39,583 bases of DNA from Candidatus Woesearchaeota archaeon (lineage in GTDB: Archaea > Nanobdellota > Nanobdellia > Woesearchaeales > ARS49): assembly GCA_016203305.1 (NCBI GenBank), contig JACQMY010000038.1:1-39583 (forward strand). Direction: 5' to 3'. The first letter of the stretch is position 1; each line of letters opens with the position of its first letter. Positions 17,622-17,859 of the stretch are shown here, piece by piece. Position numbers and translations under genes: made by a program. The notes below the pieces were generated by a model. It did not search any database, had not been told where the DNA came from, and saw only the letters and a list, made by a program, of their open reading frames with translations.

Positions 17622-17633
17622 CTCGTCGACGAG
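17622..17633. promoter_or_regulatory. 12-bp palindrome upstream of the tRNA promoter
   Basis: CTCGTCGACGAG, a perfect palindrome next to the tRNA TATA element (GAGTATATTA, 17631-17640). A binding site is possible; no partner is known. Confidence 0.3.
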
Positions 17634-17640
17634 TATATTA
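17631..17640 (+). promoter_or_regulatory. TATA box for the tRNA gene
   Basis: GAGTATATTA about 30 nt upstream of the first tRNA nucleotide at 17666. Confidence 0.5.
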
Positions 17641-17665
17641 ATTAGTAAAATAAAGAAACTGCTGC

Positions 17666-17785
17666 GCCGGGGTCGTCTAACCCGGTAGGACAGCAGCCTG
17701 AAACGCTGTATTCCGAAAGGAAGTCAGGGTTCAAAAACTTTGCGGTGATTCATGTTGCGTAGGGTTGATCATCCCTGCCCCGGCG
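17666..17785 (+). tRNA. tRNA with GAA anticodon (Phe by anticodon), T-loop intron and 15-nt variable arm
   Basis: Acceptor stem GCCGGGG/CCCCGGC with G73; D stem GTCT/GGAC around a loop containing GG; anticodon stem GCAGC/GCTGT with loop CTGAAAC, anticodon GAA at 17700-17702 preceded by T33 and followed by A37. The variable region (17710-17724) is 15 nt with a TTCC-GAAA-GGAA hairpin, the class II form normally limited to Leu, Ser and a few others. The T arm is split: CAGGGTTCAAA, then a 36-nt insert, then TCCCTG; removing the insert gives a perfect CAGGG/CCCTG stem with a TTCAAAT loop. No CCA is encoded. A Phe anticodon in a class II body with G73 (a Ser-type discriminator) is contradictory, so the amino-acid identity is uncertain. 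Confidence 0.8.
17736..17771 (+). other. 36-nt non-canonical tRNA intron in the T loop (position 59/60)
   Basis: A bulge-helix-bulge can be drawn: outer helix CAGGG/CCCTG, central TTCA/TGAT (three of four pairs), 3-nt bulges AAA and CAT, inner helix ACTTTGCG/CGTAGGGT (8 pairs with wobbles). Cutting between bulge nucleotides 2 and 3 yields an intact 7-nt T loop. Confidence 0.75.
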
Positions 17786-17810
17786 CGCCTTCTTAATATT
17801 AGTTCTTCCG

Positions 17811-17859
17811 CCTTCGTCCTACTTCCTAATACCTTCACCCTACTTGCTAAGTGCCAACA
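17811..17859 (+). repeat. Heptamer array (seven units) at the end of rpe
   Basis: Units CCTTCGT, CCTACTT, CCTAATA, CCTTCAC, CCTACTT, GCTAAGT, GCCAACA. It shows the CCT-type and GCCAACA-type units adjoining in the same register. The last units encode the final residues and stop codon of the epimerase. Confidence 0.7.

Follow-up and report, generated by a model that had tools for sequence, protein, structure and literature searches.

Class II tRNAs whose anticodon disagrees with their body have been described in bacteria. Bacterial allo-tRNAs (Mukai et al. 2017, reviewed in PMC7609411) have serine identity, carry many different non-serine anticodons and are extra to the normal tRNA set; their acceptor and T arms are of the 8/4 or 9/3 type, and they occur in Clostridia, Proteobacteria and Acidobacteria (PMC7609411). 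The anticodon is ignored by seryl-tRNA synthetase (SerRS), and in E. coli such allo-tRNAs do insert serine despite their non-serine anticodons (PMC7609411). Non-canonical introns of archaeal tRNA genes, including those at position 59/60 in the T loop, have also been described, with Nanoarchaeota among the hosts (PMC4090602).

The gene analysed here combines the two features and belongs to a large, apparently undescribed family of intron-split, serine-type tRNA genes in Woesearchaeota. A search that covered open-access papers found no description of such a DPANN family, and the novelty of the family is therefore provisional. The window, i.e. the whole stretch of 39,583 nt that was analysed, corresponds to contig C23 of a genome of 1.13 Mb whose completeness is rated at 100%. 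The DPANN host proposed by an earlier, sequence-only reading of the window is indeed a Candidatus Woesearchaeota archaeon.

A tRNA gene split in its T loop

The gene and its surroundings comprise the following features (window coordinates; BHB, bulge-helix-bulge):

17665-17785, + strand: full class II tRNA gene, from direct reading of the sequence, with the T loop as its sole break
17622-17633, + strand: palindrome CTCGTCGACGAG, a possible operator, adjoining the TATA box (sequence)
17634-17641, + strand: TATA-like box TATATTAA, about 27 nt upstream of the 5' end of the gene (sequence)
17666-17672, + strand: acceptor stem, 5' strand (sequence, covariation)
17675-17691, + strand: D arm, with GG present in the D loop (sequence, covariation)
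17693-17709, + strand: anticodon arm, loop CTGAAAC, anticodon GAA at 17700-17702 (five stem pairs, all covarying)
17710-17724, + strand: variable arm of 15 nt, TTCC-GAAA-GGAA, a GAAA-capped hairpin (class II, serine type)
17725-17729, + strand: T stem, 5' strand (sequence, covariation)
17730-17735, + strand: 5' portion of the T loop, TTCAAA, positions 54-59 (sequence)
17736-17771, + strand: intron of 36 nt at 59/60, predicted to be spliced, with hairpin motif ACTTTGCGGT...
17730-17733 and 17766-17769, + strand: central BHB helix, TTCA/TGAT (sequence)
17734-17736 and 17770-17772, + strand: BHB bulges, 5' (AAA) and 3' (CAT) (sequence)
17737-17741 and 17761-17765, + strand: outer BHB helix (sequence)
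17772-17777, + strand: T60, invariant across the family, and T stem 3' strand (17773-17777)
17778-17785, + strand: acceptor stem 3' strand (17778-17784) and discriminator G73 (17785) (sequence)

The acceptor strands (17666-17672 and 17778-17784) form a perfect 7-bp stem, and C17665, at position -1, is able to pair with G73. The class II body with its 15-nt GAAA-capped variable arm, G73 and the anticodon GAA are thus as first described. G73, the class II variable arm and the serine-type acceptor and D arm are those of a tRNA-Ser, and the variable arm is as long as in tRNA-Ser(UGA) and tRNA-Ser(CGA) of the same genome. The anticodon GAA is neither NGA nor GCU, as would be expected for serine. 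Conversely, a tRNA-Phe would combine GAA with A73 and a short class I variable loop. Selenocysteine tRNA (UCA, archaeal 9/4 acceptor domain) is excluded by GAA and a 5-bp T stem, and the nematode nev-tRNAs are leucine-type, whereas the window gene is serine-type and archaeal. Serine identity elements with a non-serine anticodon are the mark of allo-tRNAs, but the window gene has a 7/5 arrangement, or 8/5 with C-1:G73, instead of a 12-bp acceptor domain (8/4 or 9/3).

In the window gene, 43 nt separate the two T-stem strands, and removal of 36 of them (17736-17771) yields the loop TTCAAAT and the predicted splice-junction sequence CAGGGTTCAAATCCCTG. The 59/60 intron with its BHB, and the restoration of the T arm by its removal, are therefore borne out, and ARAGORN calls the spliced form as tRNA-Phe(gaa). 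By contrast, ARAGORN called no tRNA in the unspliced gene, and the unspliced precursor scores 19.1 bits against the Rfam tRNA model, below the cut-off of 29. Across the family, a tRNA was called in 69 of 75 spliced versus 1 of 75 unspliced sequences. As an excision shifted by 3 nt still gives 67 calls out of 75, ARAGORN backs the existence of the insert and not its exact ends; these rest on the BHB and the restored TTCAAAT.

The insert has the build of an archaeal BHB intron (two 3-nt bulges flanking a 4-bp helix, with excision restoring the tRNA), with three of the four central pairs in the window copy (U-U at the T-stem side). Among 106 family members, most of which keep an intact strict BHB, the central helix has four pairs in 90 and three in 11. 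It is open in the isolated minimum-energy fold of the window T arm, which may be expected of a helix of 3-4 bp. Excision restores TTCAAAT in 93 and TTCGAAT in 8 of the 106 members (together 101), and compensatory changes occur in the central helix of relatives (CTCA/TGAG, TTCG/CGAA), the intron tracking differences in the T loop.

Both the splicing endonuclease and the ligase are encoded in the same genome. The single EndA gene (C5:5617; 177 aa, with N-terminal and catalytic domains) is by sequence nearest to 1A79, the Methanocaldococcus jannaschii enzyme, a homotetramer which prefers a strict BHB. There is also one RtcB gene, whose two matched pieces (G000:C29:26287-29100; L254, L255) lie within one 990-aa frame, probably with an intein. 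In addition, initiator tRNA-Met (G000:C21:1622-1663, L202) and tRNA-Lys(UUU) (G000:C37:27926-28040, L173) of this genome carry 59/60 T-loop introns with a TTCA/TGAA helix; the RF00005 search of the genome listed neither. As both tRNAs are essential, T-loop introns of this design must be removed in the cell. The intron had been considered notable for a DPANN archaeon: it is real, but 59/60 introns are known in archaea including Nanoarchaeota (PMC4090602) and are present in these two tRNAs, so that the intron alone is not remarkable. T-loop introns also occur in canonical tRNA-Ser genes of relatives (L214, L215, L216, L218, L239, L248, L252).

Two functions of the intron itself were considered and abandoned. 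A C/D-box guide was dropped on inspection because the introns are mostly 28-43 nt long and without clear C/D boxes, and a role as antisense of the anticodon loop was rejected (p about 0.6). Introns are slightly more complementary to the 5' strand of their own anticodon stem than crosswise (3.17 nt versus 2.91 nt, p 0.0002), but the D stem gives about half that excess, so relatedness may explain it.

Counting tRNA-Phe and tRNA-Ser genes, as the sequence-only reading had proposed, gave a class I tRNA-Phe (L032), which has the anticodon GAA, A73 and an intron at about 28/29. It also gave four serine tRNAs, namely tRNA-Ser(UGA), (CGA), (GGA) and (GCU); L100, the GCU gene, contains two introns. This census rests on searches. 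With the class I tRNA-Phe and all four tRNA-Ser present, the window gene is an addition to the normal set. A recoded serine tRNA standing in for a missing tRNA-Phe was thus rejected, as was a missing tRNA-Ser(GCU) with a hidden anticodon. Two other peculiarities of the set are L013 (G000:C24:46624), with anticodon UAU and an intron, apparently a tRNA-Ile reading AUA without a modified CAU, and a divergent tRNA-Gln(CUG) with decayed tRNA-Gln-like copies next to tRNA-Gln genes (L034, L102, L103; G000:C7). The closest tRNA body to that of the window gene is tRNA-Ser(CGA) of the same genome (75% identity, no gaps); tRNA-Phe reaches 58% and two tRNA-Leu about 50%.

The canonical tRNA-Phe makes the window gene dispensable for Phe decoding, as would suit a pseudo-tRNA or an odd tRNA-Phe. 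G73 and a long variable arm, however, are wrong for Phe, being at odds with PheRS determinants, and the proposal of an 'unusual tRNA-Phe' fails on the class I gene. It had also been argued that a second, canonical tRNA-Phe, combined with a lack of reads across the splice junction, would indicate a pseudo-tRNA. The second gene exists, but a pseudogene is argued against by multi-copy conservation with covariation: the stems are all intact instead of decayed, and the family is conserved in many genera. As far as sequence allows, both versions appear refuted, and we regard them as highly improbable.

A covarying family with shifting anticodons

When 57 related genomes were searched at the DNA level, homologues turned up, several per genome, with the same T-loop insert and other anticodons, a family that could not be revealed by the single sequence read earlier. 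In an alignment of 21 of them all helices covary: 24 of 38 pairs show two-sided changes, and 93% of cells are paired, versus 36-50% when the 3' partners are slid. A covariance model finds four family copies in this genome (C23, C22:4187, C37:18480 and C37:9912), besides the split tRNA-Lys at C37:27926, and has matches in many families of the order and, in at least one case (L217), in a genome from a different order; tallies of these matches are not copy counts, because ordinary tRNA-Ser also match, at lower scores. Named relatives with the motif are mostly Candidatus Woesearchaeota. From the fetched loci we parsed 106 distinct members, genes with serine anticodons having been set aside beforehand (the set therefore contains no seryl anticodon). 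G73 is present in 103 of them.

The anticodons of the 106 members are GAA (33), GAU (16), CAG (16), GAG (15), AAG (13), CAA (3), GAC (3) and GUC (2), with CUC, AAC, UAG, ACG and GCC occurring once each; as the members are related, these counts are not counts of independent events. Position 35 is A in 101 of the 106, while positions 34 and 36 vary, and all NAN anticodons pair with U-centred codons (Phe, Leu, Ile, Val). It is this contrast of position 35 with its neighbours that carries weight. Position 33 is U in 90 members and C in 16, and position 37 is A in 92. The body closest to that of the window gene in the tree (L065, support 100/97) carries AAG rather than GAA. The conserved feature of the anticodon is A35 and not any codon, the anticodon being unstable even between closest relatives. 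Similarly, copies located divergently from the Cbf5/TruB gene in three genomes carry GAC (L136), GAA (L142) and CAG (L117). Eight of the ten canonical tRNA-Ser genes tested form their own supported group in the tree.

Family copies are found in various genomic contexts. The neighbours of the window gene encode a periplasmic binding protein and a ribulose-phosphate epimerase, and contexts elsewhere include S7/S12, a RAD50-like ATPase, Cbf5 and others, with no association with one protein family in the contexts read. Orthology of the S7-adjacent copies of this genome and G001 is doubtful, as their orientations differ. In G009 (C17:48000-75000; L196, L197), a paralogous protein array, with starts of the form MSDERLRxLERxW, surrounds three family copies. 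Other pairs of copies lie about 110-140 nt apart (L198, L199). Extra two-hairpin insertions occur between the T stem and TTC in L174 (G000:C37:9912-10107), L082 and L092 (G009), and L151 and L160 have a similar one in the 3' part of the T loop. The 3' flank of the window gene (17791-17850) has stretches of 82-89% identity at about ten other sites in the genome.

Such a distribution raises the possibility of a selfish repeat derived from tRNA-Ser, which would spread through genomes and be excluded from translation by its intron. Its many copies, scattered beside unrelated genes and sometimes tightly clustered (five within 1.9 kb at G137:C38:1601-3472, L195), would fit, as would the extra hairpin insertions of some copies. 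But covariation keeps five arms and the BHB, and a perfect T loop is restored, and a parasite needs neither. Moreover, we noticed no target-site duplications or associated mobility gene in the family contexts read, and a search of IMG/VR for a viral origin returned no exact motif match. We thus consider a selfish repeat unlikely. This comparative evidence shows instead that selection maintains the window gene as a spliceable tRNA gene, of serine type but with a non-serine anticodon.

Promoters and a leader copy of the anticodon arm

A 20-nt promoter stretch of the window gene also precedes the family copies C37:18480 and C37:9912 and a protein gene at C3:24017; its reversed control gave 0 matches in the same genome. 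The stretch is also found before C22:29968 (L207), a non-tRNA transcript without tRNA or Rfam match. In relatives, a TATA-like box and, after it, an A-rich stretch (e.g. AAAGAAAGAAAA) lie at an unchanged distance from the gene.

Two subtypes can be distinguished. In the first (52 of 106 members, window gene included), the intron bears the motif CTTKCGGT and the promoter lies immediately 5' of the gene; the second (54 members) has other introns. A single clade for either subtype was unsupported in a tree of 77 columns, which are too few. A leader repeating the anticodon arm of its own locus, usually 42-58 nt upstream of the gene, is present in 41 of the 54 members of the second subtype versus 1 of the 52 with CTTKCGGT (among others, in L126, L130, L131, L135-L138, L177-L182, L185-L187 and L227-L249). 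The window copy has no such repeat. The exact 7-nt loop of the gene itself occurs upstream in 42 loci, versus 2.7 expected from mismatched pairs and at most 12 in 20,000 permutations. Identity is high over the 5 nt before and the 2-3 nt after the loop and then falls to the control level, which delimits a 14-nt block (positions 27-40). A hairpin and an A-rich stretch precede this block. In L249, the leader is almost an entire 5' tRNA half. Duplication accounts for the origin of the leader, but not for drift elsewhere while 14 nt stay exact.

That the leader copy tracks the loop of its own locus suggests that the loop is recognized by something other than codons. One speculative and rather improbable scheme is that of locus-specific RNA modules: a serine-charged tRNA-like RNA miscoding hydrophobic codons, as a regulated toxin or proteome modifier, would be kept under control by another small element, RNA or DNA, with the identical 14-nt anticodon-arm sequence, forming a matched pair at each locus. 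The subtype of the window would have lost the leader or never had it, and has the conserved CTTKCGGT intron hairpin instead. Whatever its role, the co-evolving copy is a concrete, testable handle on function.

A broader alternative, which we hold tentatively as a real possibility, is that the product does not decode at all: a spliced, possibly serine-charged tRNA-like RNA could act as a seryl donor, an anticodon-nuclease decoy or a regulatory RNA, its loop being a recognition sequence. This would suit the 16 copies with C33, the way anticodons turn over among closely related members and at Cbf5, the special promoter in common and, in half of the family, the match of the leader to its own loop. 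It sits less well with a constant A35 between variable positions 34 and 36, which fits pairing with U-centred codons, and with Y32, a mostly U33 and A37, which are ordinary features of a decoding loop.

Possible decoding, its consequences and known systems

The reading we prefer, with a probability of roughly 45%, is that the window gene is a functional tRNA gene under regulation, in a family found throughout Woesearchaeota, and that its product is spliced, serine-charged and allo-tRNA-like and places serine at U-centred codons. The window gene would be transcribed from its own promoter, EndA would recognize the T-arm BHB and excise 36 nt at 59/60, and RtcB would ligate the ends into an 84-nt class II tRNA. 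Given the serine-type variable arm and G73, SerRS (one clear gene in this genome, C21:10672) should charge it with serine regardless of the anticodon. The GAA copy would then insert serine at UUC/UUU, and the family as a whole at codons with a middle U (Phe, Leu, Ile, Val). Sequence comparison establishes the gene, the BHB, the restored T arm, the serine-type body, the conservation of the family, the splicing genes and the single clear SerRS; transcription, splicing of the window copy, serine charging and decoding we infer from them.

A35, U33 and A37 favour decoding. Against it, C33 (16 of 106) is unusual in a decoding tRNA, normal tRNAs already read every codon concerned, and a cell that constantly inserted serine at Phe and Leu codons should suffer. 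A role beyond decoding is favoured by the C33 copies, by this likely harm, by the turnover of anticodons and by the leader copy. On balance, the available sequences seem to place decoding slightly ahead of a non-decoding role. Family members would thus either misplace serine at codons for water-repelling amino acids or work outside translation. The initial observation is confirmed, and its interpretation as a whole partly supported.

If the family decodes, a major DPANN lineage has a standing set of tRNAs that would replace hydrophobic residues by serine, and its genetic code would therefore be ambiguous under some conditions. If it does not, tRNA-like RNAs serving some other purpose form a large family in archaea. 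The split T loop hid the window copy from both the Rfam tRNA model and ARAGORN, and tRNA counts of these genomes are therefore likely wrong.

Among known RNAs, archaeal tRNA-Ser has in common with the window gene G73, the GC...GCG acceptor and the length and shape of the variable arm, but the family set has no serine anticodon and carries A at position 35, where tRNA-Ser has G or C. Non-canonical BHB introns of archaeal tRNAs share the splice position 59/60 (PMC4090602) and the motif, but the tRNAs that carry them are ordinary decoders, whereas body and anticodon disagree in the window gene. The leader-bearing half of the family recalls the CreT/CreA RNA toxin-antitoxin system (PMC8501985), with a small upstream RNA-like element having a short, locus-specific match to the adjoining RNA gene; the window copy differs in having no such leader. 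Nematode nev-tRNAs (Hamashima et al. 2012, reviewed in PMC4033280) resemble the family in their class II body, class I anticodons and many copies, but they are animal nuclear genes without a T-loop intron, and nev-tRNA(Gly) decodes GGG as leucine (PMC4033280). Bacterial allo-tRNAs are the closest known kind, with nev-tRNAs next; unlike allo-tRNAs, the Woesearchaeota family is archaeal, intron-split, of the 7/5 type (8/5 if -1:73 pairs) and nearly always has A35.
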